A DNA stretch of 31,878 bases from a virus: positions 1-31,878 of IMG/VR virus record IMGVR_UViG_3300007539_000104. One strand, given 5' to 3'. Under the pieces are notes generated by a model. It saw nothing but the letters and a program-made list of their open reading frames with translations. It was not told where the DNA came from and ran no database searches. Both the position numbers and the translations under genes were made by a program. Below, in pieces: positions 16,106 through 26,601 of the stretch (the stretch's first letter is position 1; each line of letters opens with the position of its first letter).

Positions 16106-16636
16106 ATGGCAATGTTTACAAGACAGAGAGATGTTTCTCTGGTAAGAAAATTAAATAGAGAACTAATGGGTAATATTATTACCCAACAGTGTGCTTTATA
16201 CCAGTTTAAATTAGAAGAAACTAAAGTTAATATCTATGGTGAAGCGGCTGAAGCTAAATTTTATGATGGTCCTTTTCTATTTAATGTTTTAATAAATAGA
16301 AGTGATCAAACTTATGGTATTGAAGATGATGGAATTGGGTTTAATCAGGGAATTGATTTTTATTTTTTAAGAGATGATTTAGTAGATGCTAATGTAGTAC
16401 CAGAAGTTGGGGATATAGTACTTTATCAAGATGATTATTATGGAGTTCAAAGTACAGTATCAAATCAATATTTTGGAGGCAAAAACCCAGACTACCCCAA
16501 TAATAATTCTGATGGCACACCCAACCCACTAAACCCAGACTTAGATCAATTTGGTAATAATTTATCAATATTAGTAAACACTTACTATATACCAGCTGAT
16601 AAAGTAGCAATTTCACCTTATATTGAAAGAATGTAA
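16106..16636 (+). CDS. gp14: Neck protein (gp14-like)
   Basis: A 176-residue neck protein. Family-typical segments: LNRELMGNIITQQCALYQFK at the N-terminus, ETKVNIYGEAAEAKFYDGP, then IEDDGIGFNQGIDFYFLRDD and VVPEVGDIVLYQDDYYGV. The NIYGE and PEVGDI-x-x-x-x-x-YY blocks are shared with gp14 of T4-like cyanophages. It is shorter than T4 gp14 (256 residues). A Pro/Asn-rich insertion (GKNPDYPNNNSDGTPNPLN) lies where the family has FGGKP-type sequence. It starts 1 nt after the gp13-like gene and its stop overlaps the gp15-like start by one base. Confidence 0.85.
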   Translation: MAMFTRQRDVSLVRKLNRELMGNIITQQCALYQFKLEETKVNIYGEAAEAKFYDGPFLFNVLINRSDQTYGIEDDGIGFNQGIDFYFLRDDLVDANVVPEVGDIVLYQDDYYGVQSTVSNQYFGGKNPDYPNNNSDGTPNPLNPDLDQFGNNLSILVNTYYIPADKVAISPYIERM

Positions 16637-17559
16637 TGAGTAAAGTAAGAAAACCCATACCAAAAACACAAAGACAACTTAGTATTGAACAACAAAAAGC
16701 GTTTGATATTAGGAGAGGCAACCCTAACGCTAGCATCAATCCTAATGAATCTCAAACTGGAATTGATTTTAATAGATCAACTAAATTAAGTTACAAAGGA
16801 GATGATGTAAAACCTTTTTCTATTGGAATTCAAGATTTAGACGAAGCTGTTTTTTATTATTTTAATAATGTTATTAAACCTTTTGTTTATCAAAATGGAG
16901 AAAGAAGAAATGTCCCTATAATTTATGGAGCTCCCGAAAGATGGAAATCATTCCAAAGGGATGGATATTATAGAGACAAATCAGGTGCTATTATGATGCC
17001 AATTATAGTGCTAAAAAGAGATTCAATTACTAAAGATAGATCAGTATCTAATAAATTAGATGCTAATGGAGTAAATTTATATGGCTCTTTCCAAAAGAAA
17101 TATAGTCCAGATAATTTTTATAATAATTTTGCAGTATTAAATAATAGAAAACCTGTAAAAGAACATTATGCAGTTGCAATGCCAGATTTTGTTACTTTAG
17201 AATATAGTTGTATTATACAAACATATTACATGGAACAATTAAATAAAATAATTGAAGCATGTGAATATGCTTCTGATGCATATTGGGGTAATCCTGAAAG
17301 ATTTAAATTTAGAGCTTTTATAGATAGTTTTACTACAGCAACAGAACTAACACAAGGTAAAGATAGATTAGTTAAAGGTACATTCGGTATTAATTTACGA
17401 GGGTATATTATACCTGATACTATCCAAAAAGAAATGAATTCAATATCTAAATGGAATTCTAAATCTAAAGTTACAATTAATTTTGAAACAACAAGTAATA
17501 CTGATACATTTAAACCAGGAGTAAAAACATTTCCTGGTGGACAAACTAGACAAGAATAA
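16636..17559 (+). CDS. gp15: Tail-completion/sheath-terminator protein (gp15-like)
   Basis: A 307-residue protein following the gp13- and gp14-like genes, as in T4. The segment DEAVFYYFNNVIKPFV, then RRNVPIIYGAPERWKSF, matches the (I/V)PI-x-YAS-x-E-W pattern of gp15-like terminators. DFVTLEYSCIIQTYYMEQL with EACEYASDAYWG matches the central helix region, and GTFGINLRGYIIPDT the closing strands. gp15 caps the tube and sheath and mediates head-tail joining. The first ~60 residues (Pro/Gln/Asn-rich) and last ~40 look disordered; T4 gp15 is 272 residues. It is the last structural gene before the glycan cassette. Assignment rests on pattern and order. Confidence 0.7.
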   Translation: MSKVRKPIPKTQRQLSIEQQKAFDIRRGNPNASINPNESQTGIDFNRSTKLSYKGDDVKPFSIGIQDLDEAVFYYFNNVIKPFVYQNGERRNVPIIYGAPERWKSFQRDGYYRDKSGAIMMPIIVLKRDSITKDRSVSNKLDANGVNLYGSFQKKYSPDNFYNNFAVLNNRKPVKEHYAVAMPDFVTLEYSCIIQTYYMEQLNKIIEACEYASDAYWGNPERFKFRAFIDSFTTATELTQGKDRLVKGTFGINLRGYIIPDTIQKEMNSISKWNSKSKVTINFETTSNTDTFKPGVKTFPGGQTRQE

Positions 17560-17621: not shown

Positions 17622-20600
17622 ATGCCTATCAAACCTAAAATTTTTGCAATTGGGAGTTATGTCGGAACTACCGGTTATGCTAATCATACTAGAGAATTTT
17701 ATAGAGAACTTTCTAAGTCTTATGATTTAAAAATTAGAAATTTTACTTGCGGTAAAACATGGGAAGGACTAAATGACGAACCCCATAATAAAGAAAATTA
17801 CTTTACAGAATTAGATAAAAAACTATTAGTAGAACAATCTTTATGGGATCATGATAAAAATATTCTCCACCATCCAATTTATAGTTCATATCCTAATAAC
17901 TTTGAACATAATGTAAACATTATTTTAAATGAAACAGACCATCATTATTATTACCATAATTATGAAGGGCCTAAAATAGCATATAATGTTTGGGAATCAA
18001 CTAGACAACCAGAAGGATTTTTTGAAAGGTTAAAAGAATATGATCAAATATGGGTTCCCTCAAAATGGCAAAGAGAATGTACTATTGAACAAGGTATGGA
18101 TCCTGATAAAGTTAAAGTAGTACCTGAAGCTGTAGATGGTAATACTTTTAAACCTAACCAAGATGCAACCCTCCCAGAATATGATGATGGAAGATTTAAA
18201 TTTATTTTATTTGGTAGATTTGATTATAGAAAAGCAAGTAAAGAAATTATTGAATCTTTTTTAAAGGAATTTGATAAAGATGAACCAGTAGATTTAGTGG
18301 TATCTATTGACAATCCATTTGCTAGGGATAAATTTGAAAGTACCGAAGATAGATTAAAGTATTATAAACTAGATGATCCCAGAGTTAAAGTAAAACATTT
18401 TCCTACTAGGGAAGAATATATAAAATATTTACAAAAAGGTCATGTGTTTTTATCTTGTGCCCGAGCTGAAGGGTGGAATTTACCTTTAATTGAAGCTATG
18501 GCTTGTGGTACACCCTCAATTTATTCTAACTGTAGTGCACAATTAGAATTCGCAGAAGGAATGGGTTTACCAGTAGACATAGCATCAATGTCAGATGCTA
18601 AAATGGGGGAATATGGAAGTTGGGCACAAGACTTATTAGAAGGAGAATTTTATGAGCCTGATTTTGACCATCTAAGAAAGGTGATGAGAGATGCTTATGA
18701 AAATTATGAGTATCATAAAGAACAATCATTAAGAGAATCTAAAATAATTAGAGAAAAGTTTACTTGGGAAAACGCAGCTAAGATAGCGGGTAAGGAATTA
18801 GAAAGTTTTTTAAATAATTTACCTAAAAATAAAGTTGAAATTAGCTTTGATTTAGGTCCTAAAGTAGAAATTAAAGGCCATCATAAAAATGATTACTTTG
18901 TTGAATTTATAGATGGCTCTACAAATACAGTTATTCATAGTGATACTATTAGTAATAATATGTGGACTAAATGTAGTAAATCTTATTACATACCTTGGAT
19001 AATTAAAGTAAATGGTAACATTGTACATGAATTTAACCTCACAGATAATAAAGTTAGAATTAATTTTGAATCTAAATCTATTGGAGATACAATAGCATGG
19101 ATTCCTCAAGTTTTAGAATTTTATAAAAAACATAAATGTGAAGTTGCTGTAAGTACTTACCATAATGATTGGTTTGAAACACTACCAGAATATAAAGATT
19201 TAAAGTTTATAAAACCGGGATCAGCATATAATGCCTATGCTATATATGAAATAGGTTGGTTTAGAGATAAAAATGGGGGGTGGAAAAACTTTAGTAACCA
19301 CCCAACTCAAGTAAATACAGTTCCACTAATTCAAGCAGCAACAGATATTTTAGGTTTACCTTACAAAGAACTACATTATGGTATTGATTTTACCCCTAAA
19401 AAAAGACCTATAAAGGGTAAATATATTTGTATTGGTCCAAGATCAACAGCTGGGTTAAAAGAATGGCCCTATGAAAATTGGAAAAAATTAGCAAAAAAAT
19501 TACATAGTAAAGGATATAAAGTAGTTAATTTATCTAAAGAAGGATTTAAAGGAACAAATATAATAGATAAGAAAAATTTAAAATGGGAAGATACTCTAAA
19601 CCATTTATATCATGCAGATTTATTTATAGGATTAGGTTCAGGTTTATCTTGGGTAAATTGGGTATTAGATAAACATACTATAATGATTAATAATTTTATT
19701 CCTTATGGATATGAATTTACTCATAACTTAACTAAAATAGAAAATCATAGTGTATGTAATAATTGCTGGGTAAGTAAAGAACTAGTATTTGATGCTGGGG
19801 ATTGGGATTGGTGTGGAGAACACCAGGGAACAGATTTACAGCACATATGCCAAAAATCAATTACAGTAGATCAAGTTTATAATGAAGTTATAAATTATTT
19901 TAATCCAAAAAAAAACGATAACTTTGTATGGATAACAGGAGGTAATGAATCTTATCTTCCTATGATAGAAGTATTAGCCGAAAGTTTATTAAAATATTCT
20001 AAACATAAACTAATAGTATATGGGTTTAATTGTGATTCTAATATAGAATTACCTAATGTTATAAATAGAAGAATAGATTATAGACCAAAACCAAAAACTC
20101 AATCTACAGGTGAACCCGATTTATTTAATAAAGATTATTCCATTTACTTTGCTAAATACTTAGCTAGTATAGATTCTCTAAATGAATCCTATGATAAGTT
20201 TGCCTGGATAGATGGAGATGCTTTTGCAACTGAAAATATAGATAAATCTATAAAGCATATAAATAATTTAAAGGATTATCCTTTATTTATGACTTATTAT
20301 CATCAAGATATAAACTTTTGGAGAACTTATAATGACGTAAGGTTAGAAGGAAATTATGGTGGAGAAATAGCAGCAATAAAAAATATTAAAAGGAATCCTA
20401 ATAATAAACTAATTGCTACTGGGTTTTATTTTTATGATAAAAAAAGTAAACCATTTTTTGAAAAGTGTTTAAATTGGAATAAAGATTTAAATAAATATAG
20501 TGTAAAAATATTTGCTGATGAAAACGCATTATCTGAAGAAAGAGTAGCTAATAATATTCTTTGGGATGAAAATAAAAAATTAAATTTACCTATAACTTGG

Positions 20601-21353
20601 AATAACTATTATAGTTCAAAGGATGAAATAAAAATAAATTCTGATTTCTTAAATCAAGGATTTGATATAATGTATGATAAGACTAACTTAGAACCCTATT
20701 TTATTCACGGACCAGATCCATCTGTAGCCCCTAAAAATCCGGAAACATTAAGTAAAGCTTTTAAAGATTATAAAACTACTAAATTAATGATTGTAGCCCA
20801 CCCAGATGATGAATTAATATTTGGGGGAGCAGAACTAATAAAACACGGCCCAGAATATAAAGTAGTTTGTATTACAAATAAAAATAACAAAATTAGAAGT
20901 AAAGAATTTAAAAATGTAATGGAGGCGCTAAGTGTAGGTTCTTATGAAATGTGGGATTTTAAAGATTCACTTTATGATGAAACTAAAATTTATGATTTAG
21001 AACCTTTTAATAAATTGTTATTTAAAAATTGGGAAAAAATAGTAACACATAATCCTATAGGAGAATATGGTCACCCTAAACATAAAAGATTATTTGAAAC
21101 TATTAAAAAATTAACTAATGAGTTTTATGTTTTTGGAAAAAGTTCTACTAAATTACCAAAAAGTATTTTAGATAAAAAGTTAAAATTATTAAAATTATAT
21201 AAATCTGAACAGCCTATTATAAGTCAACTATTAACTAAAAATGGTGATTGGTTTAAAAGTAATTCTAATACTAATTATATTGAATATGAATCAATTAGTA
21301 AGTATGATAAAAATAAAGATTTAACCCCTTATATTGCATGTTATGATAAATAA
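17622..21353 (+). CDS. Four-domain glycan enzyme: GT4 / heptosyltransferase-like / GT-A / PIG-L deacetylase
   Basis: A 1243-residue single open frame with four recognisable parts. Residues ~1-400: GT-B GT4 glycosyltransferase, with FILFGRFDYRKASKEIIESF and the EX7E motif in ARAEGWNLPLIEAMACGTP (E283, E291). Residues ~405-760: GT9/heptosyltransferase-like, with NFESKSIGDTIAWIPQV, YICIGPRSTAGLKEWPYENW, ADLFIGLGSGLSWVNWVL and a C-x2-C-x15-C-x11-C finger (C712, C715, C731, C743) resembling the iron finger of autotransporter heptosyltransferases (TibC/BAHT type). Residues ~765-1035: GT-A-like, with FAWIDGDAFAT (DxD 864-866). Residues ~1050-1243: PIG-L/LmbE deacetylase, with VAHPDDELIFGGAEL (H1060, D1062, D1063) and GHPKH (H1151, H1154). 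Together they could build and de-N-acetylate a glycan on virion proteins or the host surface. The target is unknown. No late signal precedes it; the next gene overlaps its end. Confidence 0.85.
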   Translation: MPIKPKIFAIGSYVGTTGYANHTREFYRELSKSYDLKIRNFTCGKTWEGLNDEPHNKENYFTELDKKLLVEQSLWDHDKNILHHPIYSSYPNNFEHNVNIILNETDHHYYYHNYEGPKIAYNVWESTRQPEGFFERLKEYDQIWVPSKWQRECTIEQGMDPDKVKVVPEAVDGNTFKPNQDATLPEYDDGRFKFILFGRFDYRKASKEIIESFLKEFDKDEPVDLVVSIDNPFARDKFESTEDRLKYYKLDDPRVKVKHFPTREEYIKYLQKGHVFLSCARAEGWNLPLIEAMACGTPSIYSNCSAQLEFAEGMGLPVDIASMSDAKMGEYGSWAQDLLEGEFYEPDFDHLRKVMRDAYENYEYHKEQSLRESKIIREKFTWENAAKIAGKELESFLNNLPKNKVEISFDLGPKVEIKGHHKNDYFVEFIDGSTNTVIHSDTISNNMWTKCSKSYYIPWIIKVNGNIVHEFNLTDNKVRINFESKSIGDTIAWIPQVLEFYKKHKCEVAVSTYHNDWFETLPEYKDLKFIKPGSAYNAYAIYEIGWFRDKNGGWKNFSNHPTQVNTVPLIQAATDILGLPYKELHYGIDFTPKKRPIKGKYICIGPRSTAGLKEWPYENWKKLAKKLHSKGYKVVNLSKEGFKGTNIIDKKNLKWEDTLNHLYHADLFIGLGSGLSWVNWVLDKHTIMINNFIPYGYEFTHNLTKIENHSVCNNCWVSKELVFDAGDWDWCGEHQGTDLQHICQKSITVDQVYNEVINYFNPKKNDNFVWITGGNESYLPMIEVLAESLLKYSKHKLIVYGFNCDSNIELPNVINRRIDYRPKPKTQSTGEPDLFNKDYSIYFAKYLASIDSLNESYDKFAWIDGDAFATENIDKSIKHINNLKDYPLFMTYYHQDINFWRTYNDVRLEGNYGGEIAAIKNIKRNPNNKLIATGFYFYDKKSKPFFEKCLNWNKDLNKYSVKIFADENALSEERVANNILWDENKKLNLPITWNNYYSSKDEIKINSDFLNQGFDIMYDKTNLEPYFIHGPDPSVAPKNPETLSKAFKDYKTTKLMIVAHPDDELIFGGAELIKHGPEYKVVCITNKNNKIRSKEFKNVMEALSVGSYEMWDFKDSLYDETKIYDLEPFNKLLFKNWEKIVTHNPIGEYGHPKHKRLFETIKKLTNEFYVFGKSSTKLPKSILDKKLKLLKLYKSEQPIISQLLTKNGDWFKSNSNTNYIEYESISKYDKNKDLTPYIACYDK

Positions 21354-22281
21354 TCTTATTACAATTTTCCTTCACTGTAATACTCCCGAAAAGATAAAAG
21401 TATTAGAAGATAATATAGATAGTTTAAAATCTAATGGGTTAGATATTTTATTACATTCTCATATACCTGTTCCAGAACAAATCCAATCTAAAGTAGATTA
21501 TTTTATATATGATAAAAGTAATCCTATTTTACATTGGCCAAGAAGAGGTATGGTATTTTGGAAAAATGTACCTTATGAAGATAAAAAACTTCACCTAATG
21601 AATATTTTACCTGATTATGGGTGGACTGTTTTTAACCAATTATCAGCTGCAGGTTATTTAGGTTTATCTTTAAATTACAGTCATTACAGTTTTATTAATT
21701 ATGATATAATCTTAACTCAAGAGATTATTGAATCATTATTAAACCCAAAAGAATTTTTATGTACAAAAGTACTAGACCCTACAGATGAAAAAGGATATAG
21801 ATTTCCTAGTTTTATGTTAAACATTTTAAATAAAGAAAACTTAAGTAAATTTCTTCCTTTAATGTCTAAAAAACAATATATGGATGGTCCAGATTATCCC
21901 AAACCATCAAAATTTAGAGATGCAGAACATTATTTAGAATATTTACTATCAGTATTTAATTATGAGACTTTTCCTGATTTAATTGGGGATCAGATCAGTT
22001 ATGGAGAACCAAATCCATTTAAATTAAATAAAGAAGAAGATTTTGATTTATTTTACCAAACAGTTTTAGACTCAGCTACTCCACCAATGGTATTATTGTA
22101 TAATATGAAATCTGATCTTAAAATCAGCATTAATGGAGAAGAATTCTTAGCTAAAGCACCTTTATTTTTACATAAAATCTCAACTATAGAACAATTTGGA
22201 TATTGGTTAAATGATTCGTATATTGATCTTACTAGTATATTTAAATCAAAAAGACAAACATCTATAGATATCCATGATTAA
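21343..22281 (+). CDS. Putative glycosyltransferase-like protein
   Basis: A 312-residue protein. I chose the ATG at 21343, which overlaps the preceding gene by 11 nt; a TTG at 21334 is possible but less likely. The N-terminus ITIFLHCNTPEKIKVLEDNI followed by LDILLHSHIPVPEQIQSKVD and YFIYDKSNPIL has the alternating strand-helix pattern of a GT-A nucleotide-sugar-binding half. The FINYDIILTQEIIESLL segment holds the acidic residue where a metal-binding DxD-like position would be, but no clear DxD is present. The C-terminal half is less recognisable. Context (glycan enzymes on both sides, overlapping starts) supports a sugar-transfer role. It may be inactive or use an unusual motif. Confidence 0.6.
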   Translation: MINNLITIFLHCNTPEKIKVLEDNIDSLKSNGLDILLHSHIPVPEQIQSKVDYFIYDKSNPILHWPRRGMVFWKNVPYEDKKLHLMNILPDYGWTVFNQLSAAGYLGLSLNYSHYSFINYDIILTQEIIESLLNPKEFLCTKVLDPTDEKGYRFPSFMLNILNKENLSKFLPLMSKKQYMDGPDYPKPSKFRDAEHYLEYLLSVFNYETFPDLIGDQISYGEPNPFKLNKEEDFDLFYQTVLDSATPPMVLLYNMKSDLKISINGEEFLAKAPLFLHKISTIEQFGYWLNDSYIDLTSIFKSKRQTSIDIHD

Positions 22282-23206
22282 AGGTAAAAAAATATTCATT
22301 ACTGGAGGGGCTGGGTTTTTAGGTAAAAATTTAGTTAGACGTTATTATAATGATAATGAAATAACTATTTACTCTAGGGATGAAGCTAAACATTACTATT
22401 TAAAAAAATACTTTCCAAATATAAAATGTATAATTGGAGATATTAGAAATTTTGATTTATTAAAAAGAGCATCCGCTGGTCATGATATTGGTATATTTGC
22501 AGCCTCACTAAAACAAATTAGTGCTGTAGATGAAAATGTAGAAGAAAGTGTTAAAGTATTAATTGATGGGGCTCTTAATTCAAGAAGAGCAGCAGAAGAA
22601 AATAATTTTGAAGCAGCTTGCTTTATATCATCTGACAAATCTAGGGCTGCTACTACCTTATATGGAGCAATGAAATTTATAGCTGGCGAATCATTTATTG
22701 TAAACTCAGATAAATCTAATGTAAAATTATCTTCTGCCATATATGGAAATGTTTTGAATTCTACGGGTAGTATAATTCCTTTAATTTGGGATTCTATTAA
22801 TAAGGGATATGAATTAACTTTATATTCAGAAGAAATGACTCGATTTATGATTGATATAGAAGATGCTATGGACTTAATTGAGTTAGGATTAAAAGTAGAC
22901 GGGTATAATGTAATACCTAATTTGCGTTCTTTTTTAGTTAAAGATTTATTTGAAATATATGCAGATAAATTTGGATTAAAATATAAAAAAGGTACACCTA
23001 GGGTATCAGAAAAAATACATGAAATAATGGTTAGTAAAGAAGAAGCACCTAGGACATTTTATGATGAAGTAGATGATACTTATTATATGCATTATAAAGA
23101 CATATTTAACAATAGTTTTAATGACGAATTTAGTAGTTATGAAACAATAGTATCAAAACAAGAACTAACTAAAATTTTAAATCATTATAATTTTTTTAAA
23201 CCATGA
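22274..23206 (+). CDS. CapE/PseB-like UDP-GlcNAc 4,6-dehydratase (extended SDR)
   Basis: A 310-residue extended short-chain dehydrogenase/reductase. The N-terminal Rossmann motif is FITGGAGFLGKNLV (GxxGxxG), followed by the acidic loop GDIRNFDLL. The active-site region SSDKSRAATTLYGAMK has S120-D121-K122 and YxxxK (Y130, K134), the arrangement of UDP-GlcNAc 4,6-dehydratases (FlaA1/PseB/CapE), in which the usual ST/SDKA-x-x-P-x-x-x-YGATK is found. This enzyme would make a 4-keto-6-deoxy UDP-sugar. It overlaps the upstream gene by 8 nt and the downstream reductase by 4 nt, so the two probably act in sequence as CapE and CapF do in UDP-FucNAc synthesis. Exact stereochemistry cannot be read from sequence. 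Confidence 0.85.
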   Translation: MIKGKKIFITGGAGFLGKNLVRRYYNDNEITIYSRDEAKHYYLKKYFPNIKCIIGDIRNFDLLKRASAGHDIGIFAASLKQISAVDENVEESVKVLIDGALNSRRAAEENNFEAACFISSDKSRAATTLYGAMKFIAGESFIVNSDKSNVKLSSAIYGNVLNSTGSIIPLIWDSINKGYELTLYSEEMTRFMIDIEDAMDLIELGLKVDGYNVIPNLRSFLVKDLFEIYADKFGLKYKKGTPRVSEKIHEIMVSKEEAPRTFYDEVDDTYYMHYKDIFNNSFNDEFSSYETIVSKQELTKILNHYNFFKP

Positions 23207-23934
23207 AAGTATTAATATTAGGACATAAAGGAATGTTAGGACATATGGTCCACAAATTCTTTCAAGATAAAGGTATAGAATGTGTAACTACTGACTGTAG
23301 ATGGCCCTCAACTTGTTTTAAACAAGTGGTACAAAATTTTGATGGGGCTTATATTGTTAATTGTATAGGAGCTATACATCAGAGAACAACAGATTTTCAG
23401 GTAAATTGGGAATTGCCTGAGTGGCTAGAAAATAATTCTTCAAAGTATATAGAAAATTTTACAGCTAAAATAATCCACCCAGGAACTGATTGTGAAATGG
23501 ATGATGATGATTATGGTAATTCTAAAAGAATAGCAGCAGAATGGATTAAAAAAGAAGCTAGAAATACTAAAATTATTAAAACATCTATATTTGGTCCTGA
23601 ACTAAATACAAAAGCTAGTTTAATGGAATGGTTTTTATCTCAAGAAAAAGATATAAATGGTTATTCTGAATACTATTGGAATGGTAATTCTACTCTAACA
23701 TGGGCACAATATTGTTTGTATTTAATGTATCATTGGGAAGAATTGCCCATTGAAAATATATTAGAAGGGGAATGTGTATCTAAATATGAATTACTTCTAT
23801 TATTAAAAGAGATATATAATAAAGATATTAATATAAATCCTATTGATTCTCCTTCATATAATAAGTGTTTGAAAGGAACAGTAAAAACTTTACCCCTAAG
23901 GGAACAAATAATGGCATTAAAAGAATTTTATTAA
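23203..23934 (+). CDS. RmlD-like NAD(P)-dependent sugar reductase (SDR)
   Basis: A 243-residue SDR with N-terminal VLILGHKGMLGHMVHKFF (GxxGxxG) and a central IVNCIGAIHQ strand, as in dTDP-4-dehydrorhamnose reductases (RmlD). The YGNSKRIAAEW segment supplies YxxxK. The C-terminal part (SIFGPELNTKASLMEWFLSQ, then GNSTLTWAQYC) fits substrate-binding sequence of this family, as does the PLREQI ending. It would reduce the 4-keto sugar produced by the upstream dehydratase. It overlaps that gene by 4 nt and is the last gene of the cassette; a late signal begins at its stop codon. It is shorter than RmlD proper (about 300), and the substrate is not certain. Confidence 0.8.
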   Translation: MKVLILGHKGMLGHMVHKFFQDKGIECVTTDCRWPSTCFKQVVQNFDGAYIVNCIGAIHQRTTDFQVNWELPEWLENNSSKYIENFTAKIIHPGTDCEMDDDDYGNSKRIAAEWIKKEARNTKIIKTSIFGPELNTKASLMEWFLSQEKDINGYSEYYWNGNSTLTWAQYCLYLMYHWEELPIENILEGECVSKYELLLLLKEIYNKDININPIDSPSYNKCLKGTVKTLPLREQIMALKEFY

Positions 23935-23954: not shown

Positions 23955-24206
23955 ATGAGTAATACAAAGTTATCACAAGAAGAGTTGCAACAATTAAGAG
24001 ATTTTCAAAGAATAGATAATGAAATAACTTTTTCTTTAGGTCAAATTGAATTAAGAAAAATTTATTTAGAAAGAGATAAACAAAATCTCCAAAATCAATA
24101 TCAAACTCTTCTCCAAGATCAAGAAAAAGTAGGCAAAGAACTACAGGAAAAATACGGAGATGGAAACATTGATTTAGAAAAAGGAGAATTCATTAGTTCA
24201 AAATAG
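23955..24206 (+). CDS. Small coiled-coil protein conserved near tail genes
   Basis: An 83-residue protein starting at the ATG at 23955 (MSNTKLSQEEL), right after a late signal. An upstream in-frame ATG at 23865 lies inside the reductase gene and is rejected. Residues ~5-65 are a heptad coiled coil (IELRKIYLERDKQNLQNQY, then QTLLQDQEKVGKELQEK). The ending KYGDGNIDLEKGEFI is a pattern (KYG-x-G-x-I-D-x-x-x-GEF) that I recognise from small uncharacterised proteins of many T4-like marine phages. It sits just before the tail sheath gene and could be a tail-assembly chaperone, but the function is not known. Confidence 0.8.
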   Translation: MSNTKLSQEELQQLRDFQRIDNEITFSLGQIELRKIYLERDKQNLQNQYQTLLQDQEKVGKELQEKYGDGNIDLEKGEFISSK

Positions 24207-24264: not shown

Positions 24265-26601
24265 ATGGCAGAAACATTATTATCTCCAGGTGTATTAGCT
24301 AGAGAAAACGACCAATCATTTATAACTCAACAACCCGTTGAAGTAGGTGCTGCAATTATCGGACCTACTGCTTTAGGTCCTGTAGAAGTTCCTACATTAG
24401 TTACTTCTTTTAGCGAGTATACCGCAACTTTTGGTACTACAGTACAGAGTGCATCAGTTGCTTATTCATACTTAACTTCATTAGCAGCAAATAATTATTT
24501 CCAAAGTGGAGGAACAAGTTTATTAGTGACAAGAGTTGTACCTGAAGCGTTCACTCCTGCTACTAGTTCATTTATTAACACAGTAGATGGATCAGCTTTA
24601 AAAACAGGAGATTCAAATGCTGACACATTATTTGATTCTGTAACAGATCCAGGAACTGGATTTACTAGTTCAGCTGAAAGTATTACTGCTGCTGGTTACA
24701 CAGGGAGTAGTGGTGAAGGTGCAGTATTTAACATTCAATTAGATGGTGGTTCATTAGTTGCTATTACAGCCTCTGCAGGTGGTGCTAATTATGAAGCTGG
24801 CGACACTATTACATTCTCTTCTAACGATAATGGTGGTTCACCAATTGTAGCAACAGAATTATCAGGTTCATCTACTTTTAATGCAGATGATACTTACGAT
24901 GCTGGAACAATTACAATCAATCCATCAGCAACAACAAGCACAACAGCAACTGGTCAAGCTTGGTCTTTAACTTTTACAGGTTCTGCTGCTCAAGCTAGTT
25001 TATCTAGTATAACAGCTACATCAGCAGGTGAAGGAGTAGTACCAGGAGATACATTTACTTGGGCAGCAGCAGATATTAACACAGAATTAGGAGGAACATC
25101 AGCAGGAGCAACTGATATAGTATTAACTGCTACCGCTGCAGATGTAACCGCTGATGTTGCCGTAGTAACTTTAAGAAATGTAGATTTAGCTGATGGCGAT
25201 TCTCCATTCCAATTAGAAACAATTTCCGAAGGAGAAATAATGAATACAGGTACAACATTATTAAGTAATGGTGCACTTGCAACAGGATCAGCAGAAAATA
25301 TTCGTTGGTCAATTCCAAGTGTAAATACTGCCTCTGGTACTTTTAGCTTATTAGTTCGAAGAGGAAATGATGATTCTAATCAACAAGTAGTACTTGAACA
25401 ATATCAAAACTTATCATTAGACCCATATTCTCCAAATTATATATCAGCACAAATTGGTGATATTACTAAAAATTTAGTAAATGAAGGAAGTGATTATTTT
25501 ATTCAAGAATCTGGATCATATGCAAATTTATCTAAATATATAAGAGTAAAATCAGTAAATTTAAAAACTCCAAATTATTTTGATAATAATGGTCAAGCAA
25601 AATCCGAATTTACAGGATCAATGCCTTCTGCTCAATCTGGATCGTTTAATGGAGCTACAGGTAGAAATATTACAACCTCAACTTCTGGTAGAGTTGCTAA
25701 CTTCTATGATAAAATAGGAGATGGATCTGCATTTGATACTCAAGGATTAACTGGAAGTAATTATACTAATGCATTAGCTTTATTAGGAAATGTAGACGAA
25801 TACAAATATAATGCAATTTCAGCACCAGGATTAATTAATGCAGTACATTCAACACAAACTACAGCATTAGTTACTAATACTCAAAATAGAGGTGATGCTA
25901 TTGCAGTAGTAGATTTAGTAAAATATGGAAGTTCAGTTGCTTCAGTTTCTCAAGCAGCAGCTTCATTTGATAATAGCTATGCAGCAACATATTGGCCTTG
26001 GGTTCAAATGATTGATCCTCAAACAGGCGAATTAGTATACTCACCAGCTTCAACAGTAATCCCAGGAGTTTATGTATTTACAGATGCTTCAAGTGAACCA
26101 TGGTTTGCACCAGCTGGATTAACTAGAGGAGCTTTAGGACAAGTAGTTAGAGCTGAAAGAAAATTAACAGCTAATAACAGAGATACTTTATATGAATCAA
26201 ATGTTAACCCATTAGCAACATTCCCACAAAGTGGAGTAGTTGTATTTGGACAAAAAACATTACAGAAAAGAGCTAGTGCTTTAGATAGAGTAAATGTTAG
26301 AAGATTGTTAATTGCTCTTAAAGGATTTATTTCTGGAGTAGCTGATAATTTAGTATTCGAACAAAATACAATTGCTACTAGAAACAATTTCTTAAGTGTA
26401 GTAAATCCGTATTTAGAAGGAGTACAACAAAGACAAGGATTGTATGCTTTCAAAGTAGTAATGGATGATACAAATAATACACCAACTGTAATAGATAGAA
26501 ATGAGTTAATAGGTCAAATTTACTTACAACCAACTAAAACAGCTGAGTTTATTATCCTAGATTTCAATGTACTACCAACAGGAGCTACATTCCCAGCATA
26601 A
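24265..26601 (+). CDS. gp18: Tail sheath protein (gp18-like)
   Basis: A 778-residue contractile sheath subunit. The N-terminus LLSPGVLARENDQSFITQQP and the AAIIGPTALGPVEVPTLVTS block are typical. The C-terminal domain carries the most conserved gp18 sequence: LTANNRDTLYESNVNPLATF, GQKTLQKRASALDRVNVRRL, and a final LQPTKTAEFIILDFNVLPTG. T4 gp18 is 659 residues; the surplus is mainly a Ser/Thr/Gly/Ala-rich beta insertion at ~105-335 (for example VFNIQLDGGSLVAITASAGG and a second similar stretch). This would project from the sheath surface. Codons are more uniform (CCA, ACA, GGA, GTA) than in the glycan genes, as expected for an abundant protein. Upstream of the tube gene, as in T4. Confidence 0.96.
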   Translation: MAETLLSPGVLARENDQSFITQQPVEVGAAIIGPTALGPVEVPTLVTSFSEYTATFGTTVQSASVAYSYLTSLAANNYFQSGGTSLLVTRVVPEAFTPATSSFINTVDGSALKTGDSNADTLFDSVTDPGTGFTSSAESITAAGYTGSSGEGAVFNIQLDGGSLVAITASAGGANYEAGDTITFSSNDNGGSPIVATELSGSSTFNADDTYDAGTITINPSATTSTTATGQAWSLTFTGSAAQASLSSITATSAGEGVVPGDTFTWAAADINTELGGTSAGATDIVLTATAADVTADVAVVTLRNVDLADGDSPFQLETISEGEIMNTGTTLLSNGALATGSAENIRWSIPSVNTASGTFSLLVRRGNDDSNQQVVLEQYQNLSLDPYSPNYISAQIGDITKNLVNEGSDYFIQESGSYANLSKYIRVKSVNLKTPNYFDNNGQAKSEFTGSMPSAQSGSFNGATGRNITTSTSGRVANFYDKIGDGSAFDTQGLTGSNYTNALALLGNVDEYKYNAISAPGLINAVHSTQTTALVTNTQNRGDAIAVVDLVKYGSSVASVSQAAASFDNSYAATYWPWVQMIDPQTGELVYSPASTVIPGVYVFTDASSEPWFAPAGLTRGALGQVVRAERKLTANNRDTLYESNVNPLATFPQSGVVVFGQKTLQKRASALDRVNVRRLLIALKGFISGVADNLVFEQNTIATRNNFLSVVNPYLEGVQQRQGLYAFKVVMDDTNNTPTVIDRNELIGQIYLQPTKTAEFIILDFNVLPTGATFPA

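Follow-up and report, generated by a model that had tools for sequence, protein, structure and literature searches.

What would a phage build with a single gene that encodes four glycan-active domains? The question is raised by the viral record IMGVR_UViG_3300007539_000104, a stretch of 31,878 bases (the window), in which one plus-strand frame, 17622-21353, encodes a protein of 1243 residues within a T4-like late gene block. The answer proposed here, to which we give a probability of about 0.52, is that the protein is a soluble, single-chain enzyme of the cytoplasm which assembles an O-glycan, independently of a carrier, on a virion protein of the phage, de-N-acetylation being an optional step. 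Its parts are:

17622..21353, + strand: whole protein, 1243 residues, in the order GT4, TibC-like, GT-A, PIG-L (open frame and domain searches)
17622..18821, + strand: GT4 domain, residues 1-400, EX7E motif at E283/E291 (Pfam PF00534/PF13692; PHROG 2170)
18822..19913, + strand: TibC/Aah-like O-glycosyltransferase domain, residues 401-764 (PDB 4RAP; TIGR04414; residue map)
19914..20756, + strand: GT-A domain, residues 765-1045, invariant DGD at 864-866 (AlphaFold2 and Foldseek)
20757..21353, + strand: PIG-L/LmbE deacetylase domain, residues 1046-1243 (PF02585; H1060, D1062, D1063, H1151, H1154)

Four glycan-active domains in one chain

The frame is open from ATG to TAA over its 1243 codons, a run with a probability of about 10^-49.6 given the base composition of the window. 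A first-pass annotation, made from the sequence alone, had described this single frame as joining a GT4 transferase, a heptosyltransferase-like GT-B domain, a GT-A-like domain and a C-terminal PIG-L deacetylase, and the searches bear it out in all but part of the second assignment. The Pfam matches of the GT4, GT9 and PIG-L domains all exceed their gathering scores. The GT4 domain, in which EX7E is found at the residues named, reaches 39.2 bits against PF00534 (cut-off 26.4; E 6.6e-10) and also matches PHROG 2170 (glycosyltransferase, E 5.6e-32). The isolated PIG-L domain scores 46.7 bits (PF02585 cut-off 28.2; E 1.3e-10), with AHPDDE at residues 1059-1064 and GHPKH at 1150-1154, and the motifs AHPDDE and GHPxH are invariant in 17 relatives. 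The deacetylases MshB, BshB and BC1534 share its AHPDDE and HPxH motifs and are its fold matches, whereas the version in the window is the C-terminal domain of a transferase chain.

The third domain gives no Pfam hit in the window protein; among 43 family members no trustworthy Pfam hit was found, and none to GT8 or GT6, nor does the domain have a PDB match at sequence level. An earlier model of the GT-A and PIG-L domains together was poor (pLDDT 59.7), and a deeper GT-A alignment, of 43 relatives, yielded a good AlphaFold2 model (pLDDT 93.8, pTM 0.91), for which Foldseek returned glycogenin and the blood-group A/B transferases (E 1.8e-7 to 6e-6, probability 1.00, TM 0.35-0.45). Because the model is confident, the fold matches agree and the DGD motif is invariant among relatives, domain 3 is, as modelled, a GT-A transferase, in line with the earlier reading of an IDGD, which lies at 863-866. 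It shares the GT-A core and a DxD-type motif with the retaining transferases glycogenin (GT8), GTA/GTB (GT6) and GlyE, but is set apart from them by the missing Pfam and PDB sequence match and by TM values that are only of the order given.

The long frame might also be an assembly or sequencing artefact that joins separate genes, the explanation which the first-pass annotation had named as fatal to its reading. Split forms do occur in relatives (L008, L009, L016, L025 and L042), but whole-length relatives of 65-85% identity lie on many independent contigs, the identical fused order is found in about 30 distinct sequences, and fused forms appear in several clades, interleaved with split ones on the tree. 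An assembly join was thus ruled out, and an artefact of any kind is hardly credible.

The second domain is a relative of TibC

As regards domain 2, the GT9/GT-B part of the earlier assignment holds, this being its Pfam label (PF01075, E 9.4e-7), but the likeness to lipopolysaccharide (LPS) heptosyltransferases gives way to a relationship with TibC/Aah, enzymes that O-glycosylate serines of proteins directly; this opens a direct route to protein glycosylation which the first pass had not seen. The domain matches TibC (PDB 4RAP) with E 1.7e-35 over 335 residues. It matches TIGR04414, the NCBIfam model named 'autotransporter strand-loop-strand O-heptosyltransferase', with E 1.6e-59, as against 6.7e-6 (25.6 bits) for LPS heptosyltransferase I; an identity of the latter type, about 50 orders of magnitude weaker, was discarded. 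With respect to the curated equivalog cut-off of TIGR04414 (200 bits), the domain scores 201.8 bits in isolation and 198.4 within the whole protein, and its phage relatives 175 to 352, several of them clearly above the cut-off (246-352).

TibC puts heptose directly onto autotransporter proteins, with Asp110 as catalytic base, Thr226, Lys230 and Trp305 in sugar binding, and four cysteines required for activity (PMC4358343). In the residue map these positions correspond to D489, T609, K613 and W677 of the window protein, all invariant in 20 relatives, while the iron-finger residues C712, C715, C731 and C743 correspond to TibC Cys339/342/358/370, all four being kept. The whole domain aligns with the TibC/Aah enzymes of the BAHT type (PDB 4RAP, 4RB4; TIGR04414), including the N-terminal barrel region, the Cys4 iron finger, the catalytic Asp and the sugar/phosphate-binding Thr, Lys and Trp; it differs from them in the replacement of Arg286 by Thr and Pro300 by Gly, in a shorter thumb, and in its fusion to GT4, GT-A and PIG-L. 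Since the catalytic and iron-finger residues are retained, the adenine-reading arginine and the full thumb are not, and the score is borderline, the phage domain is better described, as far as its sequence goes, as a relative of TibC which probably works like it than as a confirmed BAHT. No autotransporter gene was recognised among the annotated proteins of the window.

In one supported clade (L008, L009, L025-L028 and L128) the iron-finger cysteines have been lost together in the members inspected, which suggests a changed oligomer or substrate recognition in that group.

Fused, split and reshuffled forms

Relatives were collected by scanning IMG/VR with the whole protein (27 loci), with domains 3-4 (76 loci) and for the TibC-like domain (more than 500 contigs, 80 of them kept). 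The architecture search suggested in the first pass found the same order in 31 distinct IMG/VR chains. Counted over 96 distinct TibC-like domains, some in chains cut by contig ends, the domain shares a chain with GT-A in 32 cases (these 31 and L093), belongs to a split pair of GT4-TibC and GT-A-PIG-L proteins in 14, to a pair of GT4-TibC and GT-A-P2 proteins with no PIG-L in two, to a GT4-TibC protein only in 30, and stands alone in 18; P2 is here the product of the gene that follows in the window. The tree of the TibC-like domain, built by maximum likelihood, requires at least seven changes between the fused and split states. The fusion is therefore labile, and both forms probably work alike.

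The modules are also found in other arrangements. GT-A is fused to P2, with PIG-L gone, in L083, L085, L087-L089, L109 and L111. A chain of 1970 residues (L095:6543-12455, also L096-L101; contigs up to 205 kb) has the order GT4-GT-A-P2-P2-PIG-L-TibC and is open only if TGA is read as Trp: there are 23 TGA among its 1970 codons, several of them at tryptophans conserved in relatives (F[TS]WxNAA, LPITW and the W of NNILW). L093:270-8849 encodes 2859 residues, comprising GT4, three FkbM-type methyltransferase stretches and DUF6625, followed by GT-A in two copies (of which BLAST shows one as partial), PIG-L, one more methyltransferase and the TibC-like domain. Finally, an isolate, Microcystis phage Mel-JY01, has a protein of 1226 residues (WWT39291.1, 'methyltransferase FkbM') with GT4 at the N-terminus and a TibC-like domain at the C-terminus, as parts of one chain; unlike the window protein, it carries P2-like and methyltransferase-like stretches between them and neither GT-A nor PIG-L. 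GT4 is N-terminal in every multi-domain form seen. No other evidence speaks as strongly for a single pathway shared by all the parts, P2 among them, as the repeated linkage of the same modules, fused or adjacent and in differing orders.

The first-pass annotation knew of no phage enzyme with this domain order, and no annotated record with it was found in a collection that comprises 50,697 phage records: a TibC-like match is present in just four of these, and the GT-A domain in none. A bacterial origin was also considered and dropped: the sole match of domains 3-4 in GTDB genomes (L175) lies on a contig which, having sheath, tube and hub genes, is that of a phage within a metagenome-assembled genome.

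An island next to the sheath gene that some relatives lack

The late block of the window includes genes for the terminase large subunit, portal, head maturation protease, Gp23 major capsid protein, PhoH, a head-tail adaptor-like protein, tail sheath, tail tube and baseplate hub. Sequence similarity makes a host among the Bacteroidota plausible, since Flavobacterium phage immuto is both the nearest named phage for the capsid protein (59% identity) and the best match for the sheath (53%). The surroundings of the gene are as follows:

16636..17559, + strand: left-border gene, tail-completion-type, function by position only (synteny)
21343..22281, + strand: P2, conserved, 11-nt overlap with the preceding gene (recurs within the megaproteins of other phages)
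22274..23206, + strand: nucleotide-sugar 4,6-dehydratase-like short-chain dehydrogenase/reductase (SDR), PseB/FnlA-like (PF02719, E 1.1e-39)
23203..23934, + strand: small RmlD-like SDR, possible nucleotide-sugar reductase (PF04321, weak, E 0.0014)
23955..24206, + strand: small coiled-coil gene, right border of the island (also at empty sites)
24265..26601, + strand: tail sheath, candidate acceptor with a Ser/Thr-rich insert, not specific (PHROG 23, E 1.2e-63)

The island consists of four genes (the 1243-residue protein, P2 and the two SDRs), placed between the left-border gene, whose product by its position is probably a tail completion protein, and the coiled-coil gene. Overlaps of a few bases among the island genes suggest that their translation is coupled. 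P2 has no Pfam, NCBIfam or convincing PDB match, and profile comparison revealed no relation to the GT-A domain; a joint alignment of both was dropped, as P2 was misaligned onto GT-A. The dehydratase-like SDR scores 165.7 bits against TIGR03589, under the cut-off of 407.8.

The occupancy of the site was estimated in relatives picked via the tail-tube gene, not the enzyme, which gave 53 loci with a sheath gene and enough upstream DNA. Upstream of the sheath, 23 of them have a TibC-like gene, two another module of the set, and 28 none visible. Eleven of these 28 (L189, L192, L206, L207, L208, L212, L218, L222, L224, L233 and L257) are empty sites, because they have the left-border gene and, a few hundred bases further on, the sheath gene; the coiled-coil gene is retained at L189, L206, L207, L208, L212 and L218. 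The island is therefore optional in these phages.

Other genes were noted at or near these loci. In a near relative, L002:4563-5803 encodes APS kinase, HAD-like and cytidylyltransferase-like proteins between the left-border gene and GT4, whose sequences hint at sulphate or other tailoring. Tandem pairs of sheath genes occur at L246:1680-5100 and L255:365-3890. Upstream of the terminase, positions 568-1522 of the window hold adenylyltransferase-like and thymidylate-kinase-like genes; the former (568-990) was considered as an ADP-heptose supplier and not used, its match being weak and far under the cut-off.

Proposed mechanism and alternatives

The enzyme would act late in infection as a soluble single chain in the host cytoplasm, the site of phage particle assembly, where initiation would also take place. 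The TibC-like domain would transfer the first sugar from a nucleotide-sugar directly to Ser/Thr of a protein, dispensing with a lipid carrier and ligase; GT4 and GT-A would next extend the glycan by more sugars, of which one would probably be N-acetylated, and PIG-L would strip that acetyl group to leave a free amine. The downstream dehydratase- and reductase-like genes would supply a deoxy-nucleotide-sugar, and P2 would add one more module to this pathway. A stepwise assembly with possible de-N-acetylation had been put forward in the first pass, and is reasonable. We infer a protein acceptor from the homology with TibC, whereas the order of the steps and the N-acetylated substrate are proposals from the domain content. 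A virion protein would be the likeliest target, because the island lies inside the virion gene block just before the tail sheath gene. Short protein-bound glycans are thus the probable product in phages of this kind, and the proteins of the phage particles themselves their most likely recipients.

Several observations weigh against this proposal. The adenine-reading Arg286 of TibC is T658 in the window, the aligned column being non-Arg in 20 relatives, and the beta-hairpin thumb, which in TibC serves the dodecamer ring, lacks about 10 residues after Val266. An ADP-heptose donor and a dodecamer can therefore not be assumed, and both donor and oligomeric state may differ from those of TibC. PIG-L is missing from part of the family (the GT-A-P2 fusions, the GT4-TibC and the TibC-only forms), so that the amine step would be optional. 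The location of the island beside tail genes is circumstantial. Moreover, although the window sheath has a large variable insert rich in Ser/Thr at about residues 95-320, the Ser/Thr fraction of the variable region is 0.25 in the immuto sheath and 0.24 on average in phages with the cassette, and no relative of the 1243-residue protein was found in immuto; the sheath as acceptor is thus unsupported by its insert. The sheaths of other relatives, of about 570-600 residues, have a much shorter insert.

The same domains could instead O-glycosylate a host protein or remodel a host surface glycan (LPS or capsule), for instance to block superinfection. The GT9 fold is common to LPS heptosyltransferases, the TibC family acts on surface autotransporters and sugar-nucleotide genes adjoin the enzyme gene, but the TibC-type match far exceeds the LPS type, no membrane or transport gene is among the recognised island genes, and the island sits within the late virion block, which leaves a host target as an unlikely, though the most serious, competitor. 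Less probable still is a soluble oligosaccharide or glycolipid as the product, the TibC-like domain having lost its protein specificity: the replaced Arg286, the shortened thumb and the supported clade whose inspected members lack the four cysteines, a sign of drift, would agree with it, but the cysteines and catalytic residues are retained in the window and in most fused relatives. That the transferases decorate hypermodified DNA of the phage, by analogy with other phages in which glycosyltransferases are stacked, is improbable to a further degree. Phage enzymes that add diverse glycans to modified bases do exist, according to a summary of the work (Pyle et al. 2024, via PMC12619734), but no thymidylate synthase/hydroxymethylase (PF00303) was found on eight relative contigs of 44-120 kb, possibly incomplete, in a search whose control worked, and the TibC homology points to protein; a Tet/JBP search carries no weight, its own control not having been recovered.

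Known systems and significance

A related known case is that of the mycobacteriophages, in which, as summarised in PMC12619734 and PMC10877033, virion glycosylation is tied to phage-encoded glycosyltransferases (Freeman et al. 2023), with glycans on capsid and tail-tube proteins; those summaries do not mention a TibC-like domain, a fused deacetylase or a multi-enzyme chain. Taken singly, the domains of the window protein are all of known kinds or similar to them, and nothing on point was found in the openly licensed literature for phage O-heptosyltransferases or for PIG-L in phage glycosylation. The domain order, the deacetylase fusion and the shuffled island appear to be undescribed there. 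A broader reading, which we advance tentatively and at somewhat less than even odds, is that aquatic T4-like phages possess a modular, assembly-line-like protein glycosylation, with TibC-type initiation on protein, extension by fused glycosyltransferases and tailoring by fused deacetylases or methyltransferases, shuffled from phage to phage so as to give the virion variable, sometimes positively charged glycans.

If the proposal is true, carrier-free protein O-glycosylation would be encoded, as an optional island beside the sheath gene, in many uncultivated T4-like phages, and the TibC family would reach beyond bacterial surface adhesins to phages. The fused enzymes may also serve glycoprotein production. 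The genes, one of them in an isolated Microcystis phage, would make it testable whether environmental phages sugar-coat their particles, and with what effect on adsorption or defence.

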